Shown here one piece after another: positions 19,739 through 33,088 of a stretch of DNA of 60,739 bases. The first letter of the stretch is position 1; the number at the start of each line of letters is the position of its first letter. Position numbers and translations under genes: made by a program. Source of the stretch: Ktedonobacteraceae bacterium (GTDB lineage Bacteria > Chloroflexota > Ktedonobacteria > Ktedonobacterales > Ktedonobacteraceae); contig DASRBN010000016.1 of the NCBI GenBank assembly GCA_035653615.1, forward strand, positions 1 through 60,739, written 5' to 3'. Under the pieces are notes generated by a model, which was not told the DNA's origin, made no database searches, and saw only the letters and a list, made by a program, of their open reading frames with translations.

Positions 19739-19769
19739 ATAGCCAGCAAACAAAAAACCGCTAGAAGTG

Positions 19770-20015
19770 ACGATGAGCAGGAGGAGTAGGCACCTATTCT
19801 CCGTACAGAGAAGGAAGATCATGCCGGCTGCGAATCTTCCCCGGAGCAATACGCCGAAGGTCGCCTGGGAGTCTGAAATCCGACTCAAACAGGGTTTCAC
19901 GGGAGTGCCCGTTACAGTACAGCCCAAGAATCAATCTTCGTGATTGATTGAAACAAGGTGGTACCACGAGCAATTTTAGCCCTTTCTCGTCCTTGACGGG
20001 GAAAGGGCTTTTTCT
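19770..20015 (+). ncRNA. T-box riboswitch for valyl-tRNA
   Basis: A tRNA-sensing leader that antiterminates valS when uncharged tRNA-Val binds. Stem I has the AGUA loop-E motif (19785-19788) opposite GAA (19856-19858), an arrangement that places the specifier codon one base later at 19860-19862. That codon is GUC, valine. A stem with GAGTC/GACTC arms follows. The T-box proper, AAGGTGGTACCACG, spans about 19955-19968 and contains the UGG-type bases that pair with the tRNA acceptor end. The terminator helix is at 19978-20009. Specifier, T-box and downstream valS agree, so the assignment is strong. Confidence 0.9.
19978..20013 (+). terminator. T-box-controlled intrinsic terminator
   Basis: AGCCCTTTC (19978-19986) pairs with GAAAGGGCT (20001-20009), extended by an inner CGTC/GACG pair, and a run of T follows to 20013. 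The 5' arm follows directly on the T-box segment, which forms the alternative antiterminator. Confidence 0.85.
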
Positions 20016-23381: not shown

Positions 23382-24272
23382 ATGGACGATGAAAGTTTGA
23401 CTGAAGGCCAGAATGGGTTGAGTCAGGCCCACAAAACCATAGCGGAACAGCAGGCGGAGATCGAGCAACTGCGTTCAAGACTCGCGAATGAGAATTTTAC
23501 GCAAGTTCTGCGTACAGCGTTAATAACTGCTTCCACAGCAGCCACGATTGCCTCGCCGGTGACACATTCGCAATTGCTGGAGATGATCGTCGCAACTGCC
23601 GCGCATATCCTTTCCGCGCAGGCCGCGTCCCTCTTCCTGATCGATAACCATACGCAGGAACTCATCTTTGAAGTGGCTCTTGGGCAGAAAGCGGATGAAG
23701 TGAAGAAATTTCGCATCCCGCTGGGTCATGGTATTGCCGGGCTGGTAGCGGTGAGCGGGCAACCAATGGCGGTTGCGAACGCCGAGAGCGACCTGCGCCA
23801 GGCCAGCGATGTAGCCCGGGCCGTCGGTTATGTGCCACGCAACATCCTCTGTGTTCCTCTCGTCTACAACGATAGGACTATAGGAGTTCTTGAACTACTC
23901 GACAAGACGGGAGATAGCTCTTTCGGCATCGATGATATGCATGTGTTGAGCATGTTCGCGAACCAGGCCGCGGTCGCTATTGAACAATCACGCATGCATG
24001 ATAGCCTGGTTCCCTTGATCGTCGAAGTGTTGCAGTCAGCCGGTGGCATTGCAGAACAAACGAAGGAAGAGCTCCAGCAGCAAGCGTTAGACTTCATCAC
24101 GGCTATTGAGGAAAGCCCGGCGTATCACAATGCCATGAAATTAGCCAGGCTGATACACGAAATCTCGTGGCAAGGTGACGAGGAACTCAAATTGTGCTAC
24201 GTGATTCTCAGCAATTTCGCGGAATATTTGAGGGCGAGGGCGAAAGCTACTTCTGAGCTGGGGTGGCTGTAA
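23382..24272 (+). CDS. GAF-domain sensor protein
   Basis: A 296-residue cytosolic protein starting at ATG 23382 behind AAGGG. A short coiled coil (KTIAEQQAEIEQLRSRLANE) precedes a GAF domain at about 65-205, with AQAASLFLIDNHTQELIFEV, IPLGHGIAGLVAVSGQPMAV and RNILCVPLVYNDRTIGVLEL. The C-terminal ~90 residues are helical and not recognised. There is no output enzyme, so it must signal through a partner. The stop codon shares one base with the ATG of the subtilisin gene, implying translational coupling and probable joint function. GAF ligands range from cyclic nucleotides to small metabolites; none can be named here. Confidence 0.82.
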   Translation: MDDESLTEGQNGLSQAHKTIAEQQAEIEQLRSRLANENFTQVLRTALITASTAATIASPVTHSQLLEMIVATAAHILSAQAASLFLIDNHTQELIFEVALGQKADEVKKFRIPLGHGIAGLVAVSGQPMAVANAESDLRQASDVARAVGYVPRNILCVPLVYNDRTIGVLELLDKTGDSSFGIDDMHVLSMFANQAAVAIEQSRMHDSLVPLIVEVLQSAGGIAEQTKEELQQQALDFITAIEESPAYHNAMKLARLIHEISWQGDEELKLCYVILSNFAEYLRARAKATSELGWL

Positions 24273-25108
24273 TGATAACGCGACAGCCGGAGTGGAGCAA
24301 ACCTTTCACCGCCGATGCTCTACAGAAACTCACTCCTGTCCTGCCTCTTGATAACATTACTCGTGAATGGGCCTGGGAAGGAGGCACCGGCAAGGGGGTC
24401 AAGGTGGCCGTGATCGATAGCGGAATCGATGCTTCGCACCCCGCTATTGGCGCTCCCCTGAGCGGCTACGTCACTGTCATTGAGAAACCGGAAGGTATGC
24501 TGCTCGATACCGCGCCGCATGGGGATTCGTATGGGCATGGCACTGCCTGCGCCGGTATCATCCGCTCGCTTGCCCCAGATTGCGAACTCTATAGCATCAA
24601 GGTATTGGGAGAAGGATTGAGCGGGCGCAGCACGGTCTTTGCAGCCGGCCTGCGCTGGGCCATCGAGAACGGCATGCATGCCTGCAATTTGAGCCTGGGA
24701 ACGACCAAAAAAGACTTCTACGCGCTGCTGCACGAACTGACCGACCTGGCCTACTTCCGTAATGTAGTGCTGGTAACCGCGGCTAATAACATGCCGGTCC
24801 CCAGTTTCCCATCGGTCTATGCCTCGGTCATTTCGGTAGCGGCGCACGAGGGAAAAGACCCGTTTGTTTTCTACTATAACCCACATCCGCCGGTAGAATT
24901 TGGCGCGCCAGGCATCGATGTACGCGTAGCCTGGAAGAACGGAGAATGGCTCACAACCACGGGCAACAGCTTCGCCGCCCCACATATCACAGGCATCATA
25001 GCCAGGATTCTAAGCAAGCATCCCGGATTGACGGTGTTTCAGATCAAAGCCATCTTGCGCGCTTTATCCTCTAATATGACGCGAGATGGCAGCGAGCACC
25101 AGGTGTAG
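24272..25108 (+). CDS. Subtilisin-like (S8) serine peptidase without signal peptide
   Basis: I chose ATG 24272 (278 residues), which overlaps the GAF stop by one base; a GTG at 24263 is also possible. The catalytic triad is complete: Asp in VAVIDSGID, His in YGHGTACAGI and Ser in TTGNSFAAPH. The oxyanion Asn is likely in VTAANNMPVP. There is no signal peptide, no propeptide and no extra domain, so it is a minimal, probably intracellular subtilase. Overlap with the GAF gene suggests that the two act together, perhaps as regulated proteolysis or a peptide-processing pair. The TAG stop is the start of a family-B repeat. Confidence 0.88.
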   Translation: MITRQPEWSKPFTADALQKLTPVLPLDNITREWAWEGGTGKGVKVAVIDSGIDASHPAIGAPLSGYVTVIEKPEGMLLDTAPHGDSYGHGTACAGIIRSLAPDCELYSIKVLGEGLSGRSTVFAAGLRWAIENGMHACNLSLGTTKKDFYALLHELTDLAYFRNVVLVTAANNMPVPSFPSVYASVISVAAHEGKDPFVFYYNPHPPVEFGAPGIDVRVAWKNGEWLTTTGNSFAAPHITGIIARILSKHPGLTVFQIKAILRALSSNMTRDGSEHQV

Positions 25109-25205: not shown

Positions 25206-26567
25206 TCATCGCGCCTGGGGTGGGGCCTCAACGCCTGCATCTTCCTTTGCCTCAGCAGCCCGCACCTGGGGAAGCACCAGCAAAACGAAGACACCAACCA
25301 GGGCCATAGCAACTCCTGCGACGGCGAAGACGTAGCCCAGGCCAAACAGCGTGGCGAAGAGCGCGCCAAGCGGCGGGGCCAGCACCTGAAAAAACGTTTG
25401 CAGCCCTATCGCAGCGGACGAAACGCGGCCCATCAGCTGGGGCGGCGTTTCTTTTTGTAAAATATAGCCGTAAGGTACGAAGATGGCGGCTCCGGCCAGA
25501 CCCATAAGCAGCCAGATTGGCAACCACCCGGCGCCCACGCCCCTGATGGCAATAATCAACGCCAGACCAAGGATGGCAACCAGAACCCCGCTCATCACTT
25601 TGCCCGCGCCTATCAATCCCAGTGGATGAAAGCGATTGCCCCATTGGCCAACGATTACCGCGCCAATAGCAGTGCCCAGGCCTACCGATCCGACGGCCAG
25701 CCCCAGGTAGGCCTGATTGAGTCCCAGTTGTTCAACGGAAAGCGCCGCCAGCGAATCAAAGGTAAAAATGATGAAAATTGTGACCATCATACTGCCAACG
25801 GCAATGGCGAGGACCTTGCGATGCACGATATAGCTGATTCCGGCCACGAACTCGGACCAGAAATTGCTTTTCGGCGCTTCTTCCTGCTCTTCCTGGGATG
25901 GTAGTGCTGCCTCGATCCCGGCAGATTCTTCGCTTTGCTCAGAATGACGCGCTTGCACCATGTCATTCTGAGCAAAGCGAAGAATCTCCTGCATACTCGG
26001 TAGCTGGCTCAGGATGATGGCGGAGAGCAGGAAGGAGAGCGAGTCGGCGACGAAAGCGGCCTTCGGGCCGGCGGCCAGCACGATCACGCCGCCGATAGCC
26101 GGGCCAATCACCTTTGTGATTTGCGTTGAAAGCTGGCTCAGTGAATTTGCTGCCAGTAGATCATCCTCCGGCACTGTAAAACGAATCGTAGCCTGGCGCG
26201 CGGGGTCGAAAAAGGAGGTGAATATGCCTGCCGCCAGCACCAGCGCCAGCAAAACGTAGAGATTTGGGGCCCACACCAGCCCAAGCACCACAACCGCCCG
26301 CGCCAGGTCACAGGCGATCATTACGGTGCGGCGAGGCCAGCGGTCAACCCATACGCCGGCGAAAGGCGCTACCAGTATCGAGGGCAGGATGAGGGCCACC
26401 GAGAGCGCGGCCAAAGCTCCCGCCCCCAACTTCCAGGTAAAAGTAATCAGGCTGAGCAGCGCCAGCAAATCCAGCCAGTCGCCGAGATCAGAGATGACCT
26501 GGCCACCAAACAGCAGGCTGAAGGCCCGGTGTCGTAAAGGGGCCAGAATGGTAATGCGCGATATCAT
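25206..26567 (-). CDS. MFS exporter, probable RiPP export protein
   Basis: The start is ATG 26567 behind AGGAG, giving about 453 residues; the open frame extends to 26621 without a better site. It is a 12-helix major-facilitator protein of the MFS_3/EntS-like exporter group. The family motif A appears as FAGVWVDRWPRRTVM after helix 2. The central cytosolic loop between helices 6 and 7 is odd: about 40 residues (ILRFAQND, RHSEQSEES, PSQEEQEE) come partly from an inverted pair of family-A repeats lying in frame. It is the last gene of the minus-strand RiPP-like cluster, 50 bp after the metal-enzyme gene. Export of the mature peptide is inferred from context. Confidence 0.8.
   Translation of the reverse strand: MISRITILAPLRHRAFSLLFGGQVISDLGDWLDLLALLSLITFTWKLGAGALAALSVALILPSILVAPFAGVWVDRWPRRTVMIACDLARAVVVLGLVWAPNLYVLLALVLAAGIFTSFFDPARQATIRFTVPEDDLLAANSLSQLSTQITKVIGPAIGGVIVLAAGPKAAFVADSLSFLLSAIILSQLPSMQEILRFAQNDMVQARHSEQSEESAGIEAALPSQEEQEEAPKSNFWSEFVAGISYIVHRKVLAIAVGSMMVTIFIIFTFDSLAALSVEQLGLNQAYLGLAVGSVGLGTAIGAVIVGQWGNRFHPLGLIGAGKVMSGVLVAILGLALIIAIRGVGAGWLPIWLLMGLAGAAIFVPYGYILQKETPPQLMGRVSSAAIGLQTFFQVLAPPLGALFATLFGLGYVFAVAGVAMALVGVFVLLVLPQVRAAEAKEDAGVEAPPQAR
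25924..25986. repeat. Inverted pair of family-A repeats inside the MFS gene
   Basis: Copies at 25924-25948 and 25962-25986 are exact inverted complements of each other (with TTTG in place of the usual TGCG) around a 13-bp spacer. They keep the MFS reading frame open and encode part of the central loop. Confidence 0.9.
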
Positions 26568-26592
26568 GATTGCTCCTATGACTGGTGGGAGC

Positions 26593-26617
26593 GGGCGACT
26601 ACAAGGATCGCCCCTAC
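26593..26617. repeat. Family-D repeat
   Basis: GGGCGACTACAAGGATCG followed by CCCCTAC. It abuts the stop codon of the metal-enzyme gene at 26618. Confidence 0.65.
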
Positions 26618-27316
26618 TCAAGCGATATTAGCTGCGAGCCTGGCCATACCTCGCTCAACCACGTCACGGATAGCCTGGCTACCAAGGTGTACTGTCTGCA
26701 TGGCGCTCACGCCAACAATCGAAGCCTGCTCCTGCGTCAGCGGCAGCTCGTCCAACGCGGCGTTCAGGTCATCCCGGTGGTGAGGATCGAGGTGCGCATG
26801 TTTGATTACGGTGCGGAAGGCCTGGCGCGGCAATCCGGTGCGCGCAATTTGCTCATCGACCTGTTCCAACGTCGGTGGATAGCCCTCCATCACCGCGATG
26901 TAGCCGAGCAGCGCCACGGGATGGTAATGAAAGATCCAGTAATACTGCGAGCCAACCATGGCCGCTACCGAAGGATAGGGCGCTCTCTGGAGAATCTCTC
27001 GCCGGTCGTAGCCGAGCACTTCCAGGTCATCTAGCAGCCAATCGTCGTGATGCATCTCCTCGCGGATATGCTTTGCCAGGTACCTGGCTACACCGGTAGC
27101 TACAGGATCATTCTCATCCATAGCGCGTGCCTGGCGGAGCGCCGCCTCCATCAAGGGAACGCTGGCGCGGATCATGGAGTGCATGGTGAACATGTACTCG
27201 GGATACAGCTCGGCGAGGCGCGGGTTGCTGGTGAGCGCGTAGCCGGCCGCCATCAGTTCCGGTAGCACTATTTCAATTTTGTAACGCAATCGTGCGCTGT
27301 TGCTGATTGTTGTCAT
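26618..27316 (-). CDS. Heme-oxygenase-like (HDO/TenA-fold) iron enzyme in the RiPP-like cluster
   Basis: A 232-residue all-helical protein. ATG 27316 overlaps the stop of the upstream radical SAM gene by 4 bp (ATGA). The likely metal site has H83, E86/E87 and H89-H90 in AKHIREEMHHDD, H130/H132 in WIFHYHPVALLG, E144, and H173/D177/H180 in IKHAHLDPHHRD. The spacing resembles iron-dependent heme-oxygenase-like oxidases, which cleave C-C or C-H bonds or oxidise amines using O2. Such an enzyme beside radical SAM maturases and precursor peptides suggests a tailoring step. The exact reaction, and whether the site binds one or two irons, cannot be read from sequence. Confidence 0.7.
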   Translation of the reverse strand: MTTISNSARLRYKIEIVLPELMAAGYALTSNPRLAELYPEYMFTMHSMIRASVPLMEAALRQARAMDENDPVATGVARYLAKHIREEMHHDDWLLDDLEVLGYDRREILQRAPYPSVAAMVGSQYYWIFHYHPVALLGYIAVMEGYPPTLEQVDEQIARTGLPRQAFRTVIKHAHLDPHHRDDLNAALDELPLTQEQASIVGVSAMQTVHLGSQAIRDVVERGMARLAANIA

Positions 27317-28311
27317 CTGTCGATCTGTCCTCCCATTACTGCCATGGCATTCAATAGCCGGTCTGATCTATCTCCTAGAGGATCTGCGCGTCTCTGCATC
27401 GCCCAGCAAAGATCGCACATGCCTCGAAATTCCTTTTTCGCAAGATCCGCGTACTTTGGATGCATCGTCAGCGCGCCAACGCCCATCCTGTGTACCACCT
27501 GTAGCAATGGATCGGCGCCGAACAAATCCAGCGCCTCGCGCAGTTCCTCTCTTGTCTTGCACTGGCGACGCAGCCGCGGTGATCCCCAGCCCATCAGTAC
27601 ATGTTCATTACAGCACGCGGTAACAATGCCGTCATAGCGAATCATCTGCGCTGAAACGTTATCGCAGGCTGGAAACACCTCACCGGGCCAGCGTTCGCCC
27701 GTTTTCGAGAGGAATATCTTCTCCCCTCTGCCCGCGGAGAGAGGGATGACCCGTTTAAATTCCACATAGTCGGTGACACGGTCGCCAAAGGCCTGATCTA
27801 GCAGTCGTTCGGCCCGCTGCACCATTGCGGGAATATCCAGCACCTGAACGACCATCCAGGCAGCTTCCTCAGCGATGGTACGCGCCGCACGGATGAAGCG
27901 CTCGTCATCGATGCTGGCGGCATGGAACGAGTCGGTGCTGAGAAAGACACAGCTTGCGCGCCTGAGAACCTTGCGAATCCAGTCCGGGATCTCGGCGTTG
28001 GCCCACACGCCGCTGGTGTAGATAACGATATGCTTGCTATCAGCAAGGCGCTCGGTTGCCAGCGCCAGCCCGCGGCGCTCAACGAAGGGTTCTCCACCGG
28101 TGATGCCGACCATCTCCACCTCCGGTCTGTTCCGAATTTCATCAATGATCGCTTCGAAGAGCGCAAAGTCGCTGATGCTGGGGCTATCAGGGCGCGAATC
28201 CACCGAGCAATGCGCGCAACCAACAGGACAACGGTCGGTGATGAACAGGCCGATGGAGCGCCCCCGCGTGTTGCGCAAGTAGCCGACCTCGTCCAATTTC
28301 AATTGACGCAT
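27313..28311 (-). CDS. Radical SAM peptide maturase, second of a related pair
   Basis: A 332-residue protein from ATG 28311, overlapping the upstream maturase gene by 13 bp. The radical SAM cluster motif is RCPVGCAHC (CX3CX2C, residues 28-35), followed by GITGGEPF, the SAM-binding glycine motif. A C-terminal part has YDGIVTACCNEHVLMGWG and MCDLCWAM, matching the twitch/SPASM pattern that binds an auxiliary iron-sulfur cluster in peptide-modifying enzymes. It shares CPxxCAHCS and the YDG-x-I-x-ACCN block with its neighbour, so the pair arose by duplication. A radical modification of the co-encoded peptides is likely; bond type is unknown. Confidence 0.82.
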   Translation of the reverse strand: MRQLKLDEVGYLRNTRGRSIGLFITDRCPVGCAHCSVDSRPDSPSISDFALFEAIIDEIRNRPEVEMVGITGGEPFVERRGLALATERLADSKHIVIYTSGVWANAEIPDWIRKVLRRASCVFLSTDSFHAASIDDERFIRAARTIAEEAAWMVVQVLDIPAMVQRAERLLDQAFGDRVTDYVEFKRVIPLSAGRGEKIFLSKTGERWPGEVFPACDNVSAQMIRYDGIVTACCNEHVLMGWGSPRLRRQCKTREELREALDLFGADPLLQVVHRMGVGALTMHPKYADLAKKEFRGMCDLCWAMQRRADPLGDRSDRLLNAMAVMGGQIDR

Positions 28312-29375
28312 AGTTCTCTCCTCTCCGGGTCGTAGCCGAGACCGAGCATGTACTGGTAGGCCTGAATGCCGAAACTCGAACGTTGCTGCTGGATTGTCAC
28401 CAGCTGGCGCTCGACGAAGCGCATGGTCTGACGGGCCATCAGCGGTGCGAGTCGTTCAGAGATCGCCGGATCATCAGCCAGCCTGTAGCAGGTGCTGCAA
28501 TAGCCGTCGCAGTCTACTTTGCCCGCGCTGTGGCGATTCGCGATATATTCGGGACCAAAGACACGAATGGCGCGCAGTAGATTTGATTGCAATAAACGCC
28601 CGGAGATGGTAGTCCAGTCGTCTTCCAGGGAGTGTCCGAGGCGGAGATGGGGCGGCACCGGGCCATCTACGACCTCCTGGTTGCAGCAGGCGATGATCGT
28701 TCCATCATAGGTCATTACGGGCCAGGTGGCGAGTCCGCACGGCTGGGGAGCAATGTCTAAGGGAGCATAGTGCTCGCGTTCCTCTAACCACTCCCTGGCG
28801 CGTCCTACCGCGTTCACGGGCGCGACATATGCTGGGACGCGGTCATTGAAGGTGCGCCGGATATCGGCGGTGACATCGGCCAGGTAGGGGTCGTTTTCGT
28901 CCATCCCGACCACCTGGATACTCACATCCTGGCCGCGCTCCACCAGTGCCTTCAGAACGCGAAACACAGCGGCCCGTGGCACCTGCTGCTCGTGAAAGAT
29001 GTCGAGGCTGGCAGTGAAGTGGTCCAACCCGGCAATAGCGCGCTCAATGGATGGCGGTATCTGCTGCTGGCGCGCAAAGAACATGCCCGAAGTCAAGGAG
29101 ACGCGAGTACCTGCCGCGTGAGCAAGTTCGATTAACCGCTGGACCAGTCTGGGTCGCAACAAAGCTTCTCCGCCTGTGAGCATCAGCACCTGCGGGTGGT
29201 TAGCCGGCGTGAAGGTTTCGACAAAGCGCAGGAATATCTCTCCGGCGTACTGCTCACTGGTCATAAGCGAGTTCGTGGAGCAGTGAGCGCACTTAAGCGG
29301 GCAGCGCCTCGTCAGCGACAGGAAGAGCCCCGCAGCGGGTATTGGCCGTAATTTTATAATTTCCATGACGTGCAT
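28299..29375 (-). CDS. Radical SAM peptide maturase, first of a related pair
   Basis: A 358-residue protein. I chose ATG 29375, which has AGGAGG at 8 bp; a GTG at 29384 lies too close to that site. The core motif is TRRCPLKCAHCSTNS (CX3CX2C), with VLMLTGGEALLRP as the SAM glycine motif. The C-terminal part has YDGTIIACCNQEVVDG and CDGYCSTCYRLADD, which can hold an auxiliary cluster. No B12 or peptide-recognition (RRE) domain is evident. It directly follows precursor A1 by 46 bp and is coupled to the second maturase. Together they suggest two sequential or cooperating radical reactions. Confidence 0.82.
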   Translation of the reverse strand: MHVMEIIKLRPIPAAGLFLSLTRRCPLKCAHCSTNSLMTSEQYAGEIFLRFVETFTPANHPQVLMLTGGEALLRPRLVQRLIELAHAAGTRVSLTSGMFFARQQQIPPSIERAIAGLDHFTASLDIFHEQQVPRAAVFRVLKALVERGQDVSIQVVGMDENDPYLADVTADIRRTFNDRVPAYVAPVNAVGRAREWLEEREHYAPLDIAPQPCGLATWPVMTYDGTIIACCNQEVVDGPVPPHLRLGHSLEDDWTTISGRLLQSNLLRAIRVFGPEYIANRHSAGKVDCDGYCSTCYRLADDPAISERLAPLMARQTMRFVERQLVTIQQQRSSFGIQAYQYMLGLGYDPERRELCVN

Positions 29376-29421
29376 GCAGTACACCTCCTATTGCTTAGCC
29401 CTGCACTACTATAGTCTCCCG

Positions 29422-29634
29422 CTAATAAATGAAGTAGCCTACTCCACTCTCCGGCCACGATTGAAATGCCAGGATGCTTGCATCGATTTGCTCTTTGCTG
29501 GCAAGCAGAATCTTCAATTCTCCCGGTGAAAGCGTAGTCAGTACCTCAACCTGCTCGCCGGGTATCTGTTCCAGAGTGAACCCGGCGCTCTTTAAAACAT
29601 TGAGCGATTTGTTTGTGTCAAGTTGTTGCGGCAT
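29422..29634 (-). CDS. RiPP precursor peptide A1
   Basis: A 70-residue peptide from ATG 29634 behind AAGGGG. The leader-like part has LNVLKSAGF, then EQVEVLTTLSPGELKILLAS and a KEQIDAS segment. The C-terminus is WPESGVGYFIY. It aligns with A2, 175 bp upstream, through shared xG, EQ, LSPxE, (I/L)D and the terminal pattern G-x-G-x-F-x-Y. Short length, an acidic helical leader, an aromatic/glycine tail and position in front of radical SAM genes identify it as a likely RiPP precursor, with the core in the last ~8-12 residues. I do not recognise the leader as Nif11, NHLP or another named type. Confidence 0.78.
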   Translation of the reverse strand: MPQQLDTNKSLNVLKSAGFTLEQIPGEQVEVLTTLSPGELKILLASKEQIDASILAFQSWPESGVGYFIY

Positions 29635-29679
29635 ACATCTGAACCCCTTAGCTGAACTTGCCCAAATTCTGTATGATCG

Positions 29680-29785
29680 GTGACATCCCATGAGCGGGAT
29701 GTCACCAGTACTTCTCCCTCTCTCTCATCGCTCACCCGAAAGGTGACCTGGAAGCCGAAGCCCCTGGTAACCTTTCCGGGTGACA
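29680..29785 (-). promoter_or_regulatory. Two hairpins between the precursor genes
   Basis: Hairpin 1 is a perfect 10-bp stem (GTGACATCCC 29680-29689 with 29696-29705, 6-nt loop). Hairpin 2 (about 29731-29785) pairs CACCCG-AAAGGT with ACCTTT-CGGGTG. Neither has a U-tract; they may set processing or relative levels of the two precursor transcripts. Confidence 0.5.
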
Positions 29786-29808
29786 TTTAGCGAAGGACTA
29801 GAAGTATC

Positions 29809-30009
29809 TTAGTAATAGAAGTTGCCATTACCCTTGGCGTAACCCTGCACATCGGCAGCCTCGTCCAGACGCTTTTTCGTCCTTACCAGCACATCCACTT
29901 CCTCGGGGCTGAGTGAGGATATGACCAGGCGCTGCTCCTCGTTCATGGTGTCGGTATTCATACCAACCTCTTCCAAAGCCTTGATCGGATCTGGTTGATT
30001 CTGGGTCAT
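29809..30009 (-). CDS. RiPP precursor peptide A2
   Basis: A 66-residue peptide from ATG 30009 behind GAGGAGGT, one of the strongest ribosome sites in the window, as expected for an abundant precursor. The leader has IKALEEVGMNTDTM, EEQRLVISSLSPEEVDVLV and a TKKRLDEA segment. The tail is VQGYAKGNGNFYY. Terminal G-x-G-x-F-x-Y is shared with A1 (GVGYFIY versus GNGNFYY), while the middle of the tails differs, consistent with two related products. It lies directly downstream of the B12 radical SAM gene. The precursor role is inferred from size, homology and context. Confidence 0.8.
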   Translation of the reverse strand: MTQNQPDPIKALEEVGMNTDTMNEEQRLVISSLSPEEVDVLVRTKKRLDEAADVQGYAKGNGNFYY

Positions 30010-30421
30010 AGAAGAATTACCTCCTCTTTTCTTAGTAAAGTGACAGTTGTGTTTAGATCGGTTTGTCGCAAACCGGTGGCCTTCGCGTGAGAGCGAAGCC
30101 TTTATGTTATGAAATCCTGGAATTATTAGCGGCCTTATCACCTCTTTCTCTTAATGGAGCTTCCTGATATCCCGGTGGACGATCACAAGATTCGCCCCTC
30201 ATAAATTTTTCCAACCGGATCGGGCGCTGCTGTAGGGCGCGGGGACAGGCACGAGGCGCTGTCCCTACAGGATATGGGACGCAGACGCCCCTTATTCCCT
30301 GCTCTGATTGTCAAAATTCATCAGGAGGATGGCCGGCCCTCCTGACGGTTGGGATATCCGGCAGGCCTTCCCTGCTCAAGGCCGCTGCGCGCGGCATGAG
30401 AAAACCCACGCCATACGTTTG
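30010..30421. other. Leader/intergenic region between B12 radical SAM and precursor A2
   Basis: About 410 bp without a gene. It holds a small hairpin (CTTCGC/GCGAAG near 30080), an inverted family-C unit (30241-30270) and a degenerate family-D unit near 30182. A separate promoter for the precursors could lie here, but I see no clear -35/-10. Confidence 0.5.
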
Positions 30422-32557
30422 TTAAAGAACGCCTTTCGAGCGCAGCAGTAATTCCTTGAGTATTTGATAGGCCGCGCTTCCCTGGTTCCCTACCTCGACC
30501 ATCTGCGATGTCAGGGCAATGTAATGGCCGCTCGGGTATATTTCCAGTATCTCTTCCTTTCCCTCTGCCAGCGCATCTTGCTGGGGTGGGTACTCGGCTA
30601 ACCAGTTCGTCAACCGCTTGAAATCGGGGGTCTGTCCCTGAAAACGCTGCTGGAAGTAATAATCCGCGACCTCCGACCGGTTCAGAACCCCATCAACGTT
30701 GCGAAGAGGCGTTCGATACTGAACCGTCTCGATAATGGGCTGCGTCGGCTTATCATTGCGTTGTTGAACGGGGACCAGGCAGGGTCCGTACTTTGCGAAG
30801 TACAGGATACTATGGTTCGTGTCTATCCCGCCCACGAAAGGGCGATTATCCCGAAATGACTCCAATGATGCTGCTACCTTATTAATGGCCGTGGTTCGCA
30901 TATCTTGTGGATTGCGCACCCTGCCATCATGGTCTATCCAGTAGAGGCTGCGTATGATGTCGTCGCCGGAATATGCTCCAATTTTCTGGATGCCGAAATC
31001 TTGATAGCGTTTCGCCACAATAGAGCCTCTGGTCAGCACGAAATCCCCGATTCCGGCCAGCGTCCAGTAGTCGTTGTGTTCAAGCAGAAACTCGAAGGTG
31101 GCACGCGCCTCTTCAGGTGTTTCAGTCGGAAAGCCGATGAAGCCCATCATCTGCGCTCCAATGCCCGCGCGCGCCAGTTCTCGCAGCACTTCCGGCACCT
31201 GGTCGAGGTGTACCCCTTTATTAATCAGATTGAGAACGCGCTGCGAGCCAGATTCATAGCCAAATGAGATGGCAACGCATCCCGCGTTTTTCAATTCGTC
31301 TGCTAATCCTTGTCTGAAAGTGCGTTCCAGGCGCAGCTCCGCGCTCCACCGGATGTCAATTCCATTTTCCTGGATGGCATGGCAGAGCTTGCGCAAGTAG
31401 GACGGCGAGATTGCGTCCACCGAAAAGTAAAGCGTGCGGGCAAAGCGCGTGATGTTTCGCAATTCCCGTATCGTGGCCTCGATGGGCCTCATGCGCGAGG
31501 GCGAAGTTGGAGAATCGGTATTGAGTCCATAATCACAAAAGGTGCATTTATTCCAGTAACAGCCTCGTGTCGGCGAATAGAGGACAACGGGTTCGGGAGA
31601 CCAGTACTGCTTCCAATCCCAGATGTCGTACCTGGCATCGGCAAGCGCGGCTAAGTTTTCGTACCGCGCCGCCGGCTGCATAATTGTTACCGGATCGTCT
31701 GGCAGCAGTATTCCTGGGCGCTGCCGGGGCAGGGGCTTACGCTCGCGTATCGCATCAAGTATCTCGATAAGCGCCGTTTCCCCCTCACCCGCTACAATGA
31801 CATCGCAATCGGGGAATAGCGTCCATATCTGCCGCGGATCGTTCAGGTACTTAATGTCATCGCTGATCTCCGTTCCGCCCAGGCAAATGATGCACTCCGG
31901 GCGCAAAGATCGGATGAGCTTGCACATGGCAATGGCAAAAGGCAACTGGTCGGCATAGTTGACAGAGAGGCCGACAAGGTCCCAGGCGCGGCTCAGAATA
32001 GTATCAGCGAAAGGACCGTTAAGATACGGCGAGAACGGATTCAGGAGCCTGTTCAGGCAGGAAGGGTTGGTCAGGTCGCCGATACTGCTGAGATTGCCTA
32101 CAACTGTAGGAACGAATGCGAAATTATGGAACTGGCCGGCAAATCCCTGCACAGACAAAAAATCCAGCCAGCGATTCATTATCATGACCGCATGACGATA
32201 TAAGCCATAGTCATAAAATGCCTCTGCATCCTGCAAGATCGCTATCGCCTGGCGTACCATGCATGGCTTGAAACCGACTGCCGCTAAAGCGTAACGGTAC
32301 GTGAGCTGCTCGCCGCGCGTTAACCGCCCTTTCTTCTCCAGGCGAAGGCGGATATCCTCGCAATACTGGAGCTGACCGGCAACCTGTTCCGGCCGCGCCA
32401 GGTAATTGAGGGCTTCAATATTGGCATCAAGGCAGGTGATATTTGTATAACCGGCATTAGATGTCGCACCCACAAGATAAGAAATCGAATGGTAAGGGGC
32501 AGTCGGGTCGGTCAGCGGCGTATTGATAAGCAGGTACTGTATCTCGTCGTATTTCAC
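30422..32557 (-). CDS. B12-binding-type radical SAM protein with CX4CX2C motif
   Basis: A 711-residue protein with start GTG 32557 behind TAGGGG. The N-terminal half resembles the cobalamin-binding arrangement of class B radical SAM enzymes: WDLVGLSVNYADQLPFAIAM, ECIICLGGTEISDDIKYL and DCDVIVAGEGETALIEILDA. The Elp3-like radical SAM core starts at VLYSPTRGCYWNKCTFCDYG (about residue 330), where the cysteines are spaced CX4CX2C instead of CX3CX2C. VAISFGYESGSQRVLNLINK and MGFIGFPTETPEEA are typical of the fold. The C-terminal ~150 residues are unassigned. Such proteins methylate or rearrange unactivated carbons. It is first in the RiPP-like cluster. Confidence 0.8.
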   Translation of the reverse strand: MKYDEIQYLLINTPLTDPTAPYHSISYLVGATSNAGYTNITCLDANIEALNYLARPEQVAGQLQYCEDIRLRLEKKGRLTRGEQLTYRYALAAVGFKPCMVRQAIAILQDAEAFYDYGLYRHAVMIMNRWLDFLSVQGFAGQFHNFAFVPTVVGNLSSIGDLTNPSCLNRLLNPFSPYLNGPFADTILSRAWDLVGLSVNYADQLPFAIAMCKLIRSLRPECIICLGGTEISDDIKYLNDPRQIWTLFPDCDVIVAGEGETALIEILDAIRERKPLPRQRPGILLPDDPVTIMQPAARYENLAALADARYDIWDWKQYWSPEPVVLYSPTRGCYWNKCTFCDYGLNTDSPTSPSRMRPIEATIRELRNITRFARTLYFSVDAISPSYLRKLCHAIQENGIDIRWSAELRLERTFRQGLADELKNAGCVAISFGYESGSQRVLNLINKGVHLDQVPEVLRELARAGIGAQMMGFIGFPTETPEEARATFEFLLEHNDYWTLAGIGDFVLTRGSIVAKRYQDFGIQKIGAYSGDDIIRSLYWIDHDGRVRNPQDMRTTAINKVAASLESFRDNRPFVGGIDTNHSILYFAKYGPCLVPVQQRNDKPTQPIIETVQYRTPLRNVDGVLNRSEVADYYFQQRFQGQTPDFKRLTNWLAEYPPQQDALAEGKEEILEIYPSGHYIALTSQMVEVGNQGSAAYQILKELLLRSKGVL

Positions 32558-33088
32558 TGTGGTTCCCCTAACGTTTTACCATGAAAAAGACTCTCGCGCA
32601 TGTCATTCTGAATGAAGTGAAGAATCCGCAGCACGTACTTGATCGATCTGGCTCAACAGAGCTTCTTCCCCTTCGTTGCTCAGGGCTTCGGCTTCTTGCG
32701 CTCAGAATGACACGTCCGAACTGGTTTTTAGCGGCATGCTATTTTCACGTTCATAAACTTGCTACACAGTAAACGGTGCCTATGAAGAAATTTAGCACCT
32801 CAATCGTAGGGATGTATCCTGGTAGTCGCCCGCACGTGTGCTTGTAAAAAGAAAAATATGTGGCTTTTCAAGAAGATGAGAGGCCGATTGGCAGGAGAGA
32901 CGAACATTCGCAAGTGTGCCTGACGAAAGAGACAGTTTCAATTGAAAGAAGATTGGTTCGTAGTAATTACTGAATGGGGAAGCACATGTTATTGAAAGGG
33001 TTGGAAAGAAAATAGGGTGCTTGAGTGCCGTGTGATGCATTAAGATGTACCACACAACGCTCAAGCACTCCGTTTGCGGCAAATTGTT
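32558..33088. other. Intergenic region upstream of the RiPP-like cluster
   Basis: About 530 bp. It holds diverged family-A units (near 32602-32627 and 32695-32713), a family-D unit (32806-32831) and the ABC-transporter terminator at 33017-33068. The promoter of the cluster should be here but is not evident. Confidence 0.5.
33017..33068 (-). terminator. Terminator of the ABC transporter gene
   Basis: GTGCTTGAG (33017-33025) pairs with CTCAAGCAC (33060-33068), with a partly paired inner GTGTG/CACAC. On the minus strand a U-rich stretch follows (CCCTATTTTCTTTCC), fitting intrinsic termination. Confidence 0.7.

Follow-up and report, generated by a model that had tools for sequence, protein, structure and literature searches.

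The window analysed here (positions 1 to 60,739 of contig DASRBN010000016.1, assembly GCA_035653615.1) comes from a Ktedonobacteraceae bacterium of the phylum Chloroflexota and carries, between 25206 and 32557, what is near certainly a locus for ribosomally synthesized and post-translationally modified peptides (RiPPs). Small ribosomal peptides are very probably made there and altered by three radical S-adenosylmethionine (SAM) enzymes and one iron oxidase. A sequence check confirmed the coordinates of the seven genes recognized in a preliminary description of this DNA, which are all open and all lie on the minus strand. They encode a B12-type radical SAM enzyme of 711 amino acids (30422-32557; PF04055, 6e-16), two precursors, A2 (66 amino acids, 29809-30009) and A1 (70 amino acids, 29422-29634), a radical SAM enzyme called rS1 (28299-29384) and its paralogue rS2 (27313-28311), both with a CX3CX2C motif, a candidate heme-oxygenase-fold dimetal oxidase/oxygenase (HDO; 26618-27316; PF14518, 1.4e-11) and a major facilitator superfamily (MFS) exporter (25206-26567).

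The overlaps of 13 bp between rS1 and rS2 and of 4 bp between rS2 and HDO are as first described, and the compact unit is firm from A2 through the MFS gene. The B12-type gene, which had been counted in the same unit, is however separated from A2 by 412 bp, and this layout does not establish that it would share the A2 transcript. The ribosome site of A2 is strong (GAGGAGG) and that of A1 weaker (AAGGGG). A TTG start at 26621 would make the MFS gene overlap HDO by 4 bp; comparison with a related locus (L063), whose MFS protein is 41% identical, indicates that the start is probably the ATG at 26567, which leaves a gap of 50 bp after HDO. An insert in this gene, at 25900-26000, reads EILRFAQNDMVQARHSEQSEESAG and looks like a translated dispersed repeat. 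In another related locus (L087, 6354-7883), the C-terminus of an MFS transporter is fused to a segment that resembles the leader domain and contains a VMAH motif.

The gene set first listed was incomplete, as it overlooked a plus-strand pair (23382-25108) formed by the genes of a GAF-domain protein (23382-24272) and an S8 subtilase (24263-25108), which overlap by 10 bp. Both belong to the system because both are conserved in the related loci mapped below. The S8 protein, a candidate leader peptidase, retains its Asp, His and Ser motifs (IDSGID, GHGTACAG and GNSFAAPH) and is 46-53% identical to the S8 proteins of related loci.

Leader domain of the precursors

The leaders of A1 and A2 had been thought to match no class that could be named. 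Both are actually recognized by the NCBIfam model NF045560 ("aroma-sacti cluster domain", curated cut-off 30 bits), A2 with 61.3 bits over residues 7-56 and A1, barely over the cut-off, with 30.6 bits over residues 11-52. This domain is also found in StsA-type sactipeptide precursors, but the StsA equivalog model NF045559 failed for both peptides (25.1 and 16.2 bits, versus 75). The tails read DVQGYAKGNGNFYY in A2 and SWPESGVGYFIY in A1, and neither peptide contains any cysteine, the thioether donor of sactipeptides and ranthipeptides.

The NF045560 leader is common to several peptide types and does not by itself settle the chemistry: besides the aromatic-tail peptides considered here, it occurs in StsA-like peptides of CxC type (L066-L070), in others whose last residues are EGQELKLV or EGQELKLL (L059-L062, L028) and in one ending NNNLC (L028). 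Its actinomycete forms have a [DE]VxAH-like stretch ahead of the core. In L059-L062 and L028, cyclase, S8 and GAF genes come after the EGQELKLV/EGQELKLL peptide, and none of them matches the radical SAM pair of the window; such loci may be a peptide signal system that served as the source of the S8-GAF module. The term "aroma-sacti" was absent from the open-licence literature searched; within these open-licence papers, the locus appears to belong to a biosynthetic class without a characterized member, although papers that are not openly licensed may describe a product.

Related loci and the C-terminal residue

The preliminary description had pointed to other Chloroflexota as the place to look for the same gene order. 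It did not turn up in the roughly 300 genomes sampled from that phylum but does recur in scattered Actinomycetota, in a few percent of the actinomycetes. Among 121 Chloroflexota genomes, NF045560 was above its cut-off in one, namely the window's own (weak matches in others, of at most 22.5 bits, short and inside longer frames, were dropped), and rS2 was found in two of 301, the second protein being a distant relative (32% identity). In an actinomycete class, NF045560 was detected in 8 of 247 genomes and rS1 in 6 of 395, and rS2 was present in 6 of the 151 genomes of one actinomycete family. Close relatives were found neither in genome collections, with rS2 as the only query, nor in viral contigs, with rS1, and plasmids searched for rS1, rS2 and A2 yielded no useful match.

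The window proteins served to map the neighbourhoods of the related loci (numbered with L). In L063, a B12-type radical SAM gene occurs together with rS1 (51% identity), rS2 (47%), HDO (54%), the MFS gene, four precursors, a cyclase/AAA/TPR protein, S8 (49%) and GAF (39%). Four loci (L064, L065, L069, L088) carry rS1, HDO, a precursor, a cyclase, S8 and GAF; L086 has rS2 in addition, and L085 resembles L086 without matches to S8 or GAF. The HDO locus of L087 is split in two parts. In L083 and L084, which have no HDO, rS1 and rS2 adjoin a class III lanthipeptide synthetase (LanKC), a gene that also adjoins rS1 in L064 and L069. In L083 and L084, small peptides with [DE]VxAH lie beside LanKC and the rS1/rS2 orthologues, and these two loci could possibly encode a lanthipeptide with epimerase-like editing. 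No LanKC match was found among the window proteins, which do not qualify as a class III lanthipeptide system.

The association of genes seen in the window is more than chance, as orthologues of rS1, rS2, HDO, the MFS exporter and the precursors co-occur in actinomycetes and both precursors exceed the cut-off of the leader model. The recurrence of the gene set in unrelated actinomycetes bears out the earlier proposal of a RiPP locus with maturases and precursors. On the best explanation of the distribution, this Chloroflexota lineage either acquired the locus or has retained it patchily. The window is in this way tied to a patchy family of actinomycete loci whose domain is named at NCBI but for which the literature searched describes no product.

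The G-x-G-x-F-x-Y tail that had been predicted to recur does not do so literally; what recurs is a glycine-rich, hydrophobic tail with a C-terminal aromatic residue. All of the precursors tied to rS1 and HDO (13/13) end with F, W or Y after a hydrophobic residue: GGALF in L064, L065, L069 and L088, GGLLF in L085, L086 and L087, GASFW, GAGLW (two copies) and GGLFW in L063, and GNGNFYY and GVGYFIY in the window. Peptides with leaders of the same domain in loci lacking rS1 and HDO end with V, L, C, D or E. Once close relatives are collapsed, the aromatic end is found in about 11 of 11 versus 0 of 4 (one-sided Fisher, 7e-4), a value that sequence kinship makes a guide only. Neither HDO nor a leader peptide with an aromatic tail was seen in L083 and L084; because these loci have the radical SAM pair, the aromatic end tracks HDO better than it tracks the pair. 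This is the main ground on which HDO is proposed to act at the C-terminal residue, and it provides a testable substrate rule, in which rS1 with HDO accompanies a C-terminal Phe, Trp or Tyr.

Proposed pathway and alternatives

We consider with good confidence that a RiPP biosynthetic locus working as follows is the best explanation overall; its gene content and conservation are observed, whereas we infer every reaction and the reaction order. The NF045560 leader would guide the maturases. Then, at about even chances, rS1 and rS2 would make a 5'-deoxyadenosyl radical, take the alpha-hydrogen from core residues and return a hydrogen via the second cysteine of a CC pair to give D-residues, as in EpeE. 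HDO would oxidize the aromatic residue at the C-terminus, oxidative decarboxylation being one example, although the identity of this residue as its target is evenly balanced. The B12-type enzyme may or may not, with equal plausibility, alkylate a core residue, most likely by C-methylation. The S8 protease would probably cut the leader off near the [DE]-V-x-[AG]-[HQY] stretch, and the MFS protein would quite likely export the product. Three metalloenzyme chemistries would be joined on one short peptide. The leader family is named and the enzyme superfamilies are known, but no characterized cluster was found with this set; an uncharacterized RiPP class, in which HDO oxidizes the C-terminal aromatic residue, an epimerase-like radical SAM pair edits the peptide and B12 tailoring is optional, can be put forward tentatively, at slightly less than even chances.

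The B12-type enzyme has a C333-x4-C338-x2-C341 motif, a B12-binding match slightly under its cut-off and 84 bits with rSAM_ocin_1 (TIGR03975), below the cut-off of 281.85. An RRE domain considered at its C-terminus had no Pfam match and was rejected. A repeat (GTCATTCTGAATGAAGTGAAGAATC...) just upstream of its gene, at 32600-32715, resembles the insert of the MFS gene. The relatives of this enzyme (39-58% identity) all adjoin likely RiPP precursors. They occur in Nostoc (L029, 58%) with a Nif11 leader and a peptidase-type exporter, in an actinobacterial metagenome-assembled genome (L028, 49%) with an NF045560 precursor, ATP-grasp, radical SAM/SPASM, flavoprotein, S8 and GAF genes, and in Streptomyces (L033) with a small peptide, a radical SAM enzyme and a flavoprotein. 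A relative on the Sinorhizobium meliloti plasmid pAK76 (L013, 13065-16305; 43%) accompanies a small NHLP-like peptide ending GGQNC, a flavoprotein of cysteine-decarboxylase type and 2OG-Fe(II) oxygenase genes. Three Actinoplanes loci (L030-L032) have an NHLP-like leader, YcaO and TfuA (typed in L030), and genome G410 has an NHLP-like precursor ending SSEVDVNIVVIAIVI and a YcaO-like gene. The products of L030-L032 and L094, where NHLP-like leaders, YcaO-type genes and a B12 radical SAM enzyme accompany the cores NNVNNNLYQSK, GNNNINLYQSK, INVNINLYQAK and SSEVDVNIVVIAIVI, are possible thioamidated peptides. By association, the B12-type enzyme would be a RiPP enzyme working across several leader classes, and optional in this system. 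Methylation is the commonest reaction of B12 radical SAM enzymes.

The same data bear on the alternative that the B12-type gene is a separate unit not acting on A1/A2, the pathway being limited to A2-A1-rS1-rS2-HDO-MFS plus S8-GAF. The 412-bp gap, the lack of this gene in minimal actinomycete loci and the work of its close relatives in loci with other leaders all fit such a separation. However, a close relative (49%) in L028 goes together with S8, GAF and a precursor of the NF045560 type, and in L063 the corresponding position beside rS1 holds an unrelated B12 radical SAM enzyme, so that we regard separation as rather unlikely.

The HDO protein belongs to PF14518 (45.0 bits versus a gathering score of 28.9), and E86/E87, H90, E144 and H173-x3-D177-x2-H180 are invariant across the aligned orthologues. 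These residues appear compatible with the 3-His/3-carboxylate metal ligand set of HDO enzymes (PMC13108848). According to a 2026 review, the modification of ribosomal peptides by HDO enzymes is supported by only one genome-mining paper (PMC13108848). Given such sparse support, a defined HDO-peptide pair would be useful.

A different view of the C-terminal residues would be that the product is no secreted modified peptide but a small redox cofactor or signal derived from the C-terminal dipeptide, like mycofactocin or pyrroloquinoline quinone (PQQ). The invariant hydrophobic-aromatic dipeptide (IY, YY, LF, LW, FW) and the cyclase/AAA regulator that these loci may carry are in its favour, as is the fold superfamily shared by HDO and PqqC. 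Mycofactocin formation involves radical SAM decarboxylation and a C-C bond at the C-terminal Val-Tyr. Nevertheless, rS2 reaches 18.7 bits with the mycofactocin radical SAM model TIGR03962 versus a cut-off of 265, several divergent precursors per locus (four in L063, two in the window) together with the MFS exporter suit a secreted product, and the distribution is patchy, which makes a cofactor unlikely.

The relationship initially noted between rS1 and rS2 was confirmed (27% identity; BLASTP, 2e-18). In rS1, where counting starts with the residue that follows the ATG at 29366, CX3CX2C corresponds to C21/C25/C28 and additional cysteines are found at 209, 226, 227, 289 and 292; in rS2, it corresponds to C28/C32/C35, with additional cysteines at 216, 233, 234, 299 and 302. 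The orthologues follow the same pattern (CX3CX2C, an invariant cysteine, a CC pair and a C-terminal cysteine pair), and the CC pair (C226-C227 in rS1, C233-C234 in rS2) is kept in 10 of 11 rS1 and 7 of 7 rS2 sequences. Four of these cysteines could hold an auxiliary cluster, the second cysteine of the CC pair then being free. The best NCBIfam match of both enzymes is the peptide epimerase YydG (TIGR04078; 58.9 bits for rS1 and 42.1 for rS2), and when the PDB is searched with a profile made from ten rS1 sequences, structures of EpeE/YydG come first (2.8e-11). The CC column of rS1 aligns with Cys222-Cys223 of EpeE, in a numbering of the chain that puts the documented Cys223 second in the pair; Cys223 is the proposed hydrogen donor (PMC8326336). 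Epimerase-like enzymes are a best guess from these comparisons, and no family membership is claimed.

Alternatively, rS1 and rS2 could make cyclophane-type aryl-to-carbon crosslinks via aromatic residues instead of epimerizing, since core aromatic residues are conserved and cyclophane synthases are radical SAM enzymes. This enzyme family is associated with aromatic-x-x triplets, but the sole aromatic residue of GGALF and GGLLF is the last one and cannot open such a triplet; as the best matches are moreover EpeE/YydG and not cyclophane synthases, crosslinking is improbable. As for a sactipeptide or ranthipeptide locus, suggested by the "aroma-sacti" label and by the leader domain, which CxC precursors of the StsA type also have, it can practically be dismissed, since cysteine is lacking in A1/A2, which therefore cannot bear thioether crosslinks and are refuted as substrates, as well as in the GGALF, GGLLF and GASFW tails, and the StsA model failed.

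In a genome of another Chloroflexota family (G259, L010, 996-2559), an Os1348-type NHLP-clan peptide ending ATFITFEVTIYK directly precedes a single radical SAM enzyme with the CC motif; this pair is a candidate second epimerase-like RiPP.

Several observations weigh against the peptide-editing pathway proposed here. Both radical SAM enzymes fall far short of the TIGR04078 cut-off (300 bits), Asp210 of EpeE (Ala in PDB 8ai6, by comparison of two chains) is not conserved in rS1/rS2, and the rS1 of L086 lacks the second cysteine of the CC pair. The single-sequence fold of HDO (pLDDT 48) was too poor for metal placement and was left unused. The HDO locus of L087 also includes a peptide that has the leader domain but a non-aromatic tail, next to a different radical SAM enzyme, A1 has no clear [DE]VxAH-like site, and the cyclase/AAA gene usual beside S8-GAF elsewhere was not found in the window. 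Minimal loci do without the B12-type enzyme, whose gene stands apart from A2. Finally, an Asn motif proposed as its target (NNNLC, SNNICC, NNNLYQSK, NINLYQAK, NNINNNIK, GNGNFYY) was rejected, as the prediction set beforehand failed in the precursor end of G410.

Elsewhere in the window, a valyl-tRNA synthetase gene is preceded by a T-box leader (19764-19997; RF00230, 97.7 bits), and the contig end (60601-60739) is a partial 16S rRNA gene. Promoter and terminator scans did no better than shuffles. PADLOC matches (subtilase, viperin-like, Pycsar-cyclase-like) were discounted as generic superfamily matches.

Comparison with known systems

The locus shares with StsA-type sactipeptide clusters the NF045560 leader, the [DE]VxAH-like pre-core stretch of actinomycete forms and maturation by radical SAM enzymes, but its precursors have neither a CxC core nor any cysteine, fail NF045559 and are accompanied by EpeE-like maturases and HDO. 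Likewise, it resembles the epipeptide system EpeXE (YydFG) of Bacillus subtilis in having radical SAM enzymes nearest to EpeE, a CC pair at the position of Cys222-Cys223 and the logic of a free cysteine as hydrogen donor; unlike that system, it has two paralogues below the cut-off, no Asp210, an unrelated leader, and HDO and B12-type partners.

Like rSAM_ocin_1 (TIGR03975), ApyD and PhpK, the enzyme encoded at 30422-32557 is a radical SAM enzyme of the B12 type and lies in a RiPP neighbourhood, whereas its scores (74-84 bits versus cut-offs of 282-750) and CX4CX2C spacing set it in its own subfamily. HDO belongs to the PF14518 fold family of UndA, AetD, MboA and CADD, with a His/carboxylate set compatible with 3H/3C, but it lies in a RiPP neighbourhood, its substrate is probably a peptide C-terminus and its similarity to MboA is very weak (E 0.09). 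The mycofactocin precursor MftA, also matured by a radical SAM enzyme, has a C-terminal hydrophobic-aromatic dipeptide like those of A1 and A2; the window differs from mycofactocin systems in its radical SAM enzyme, which fails the mycofactocin model, and in its multiple precursors and exporter.

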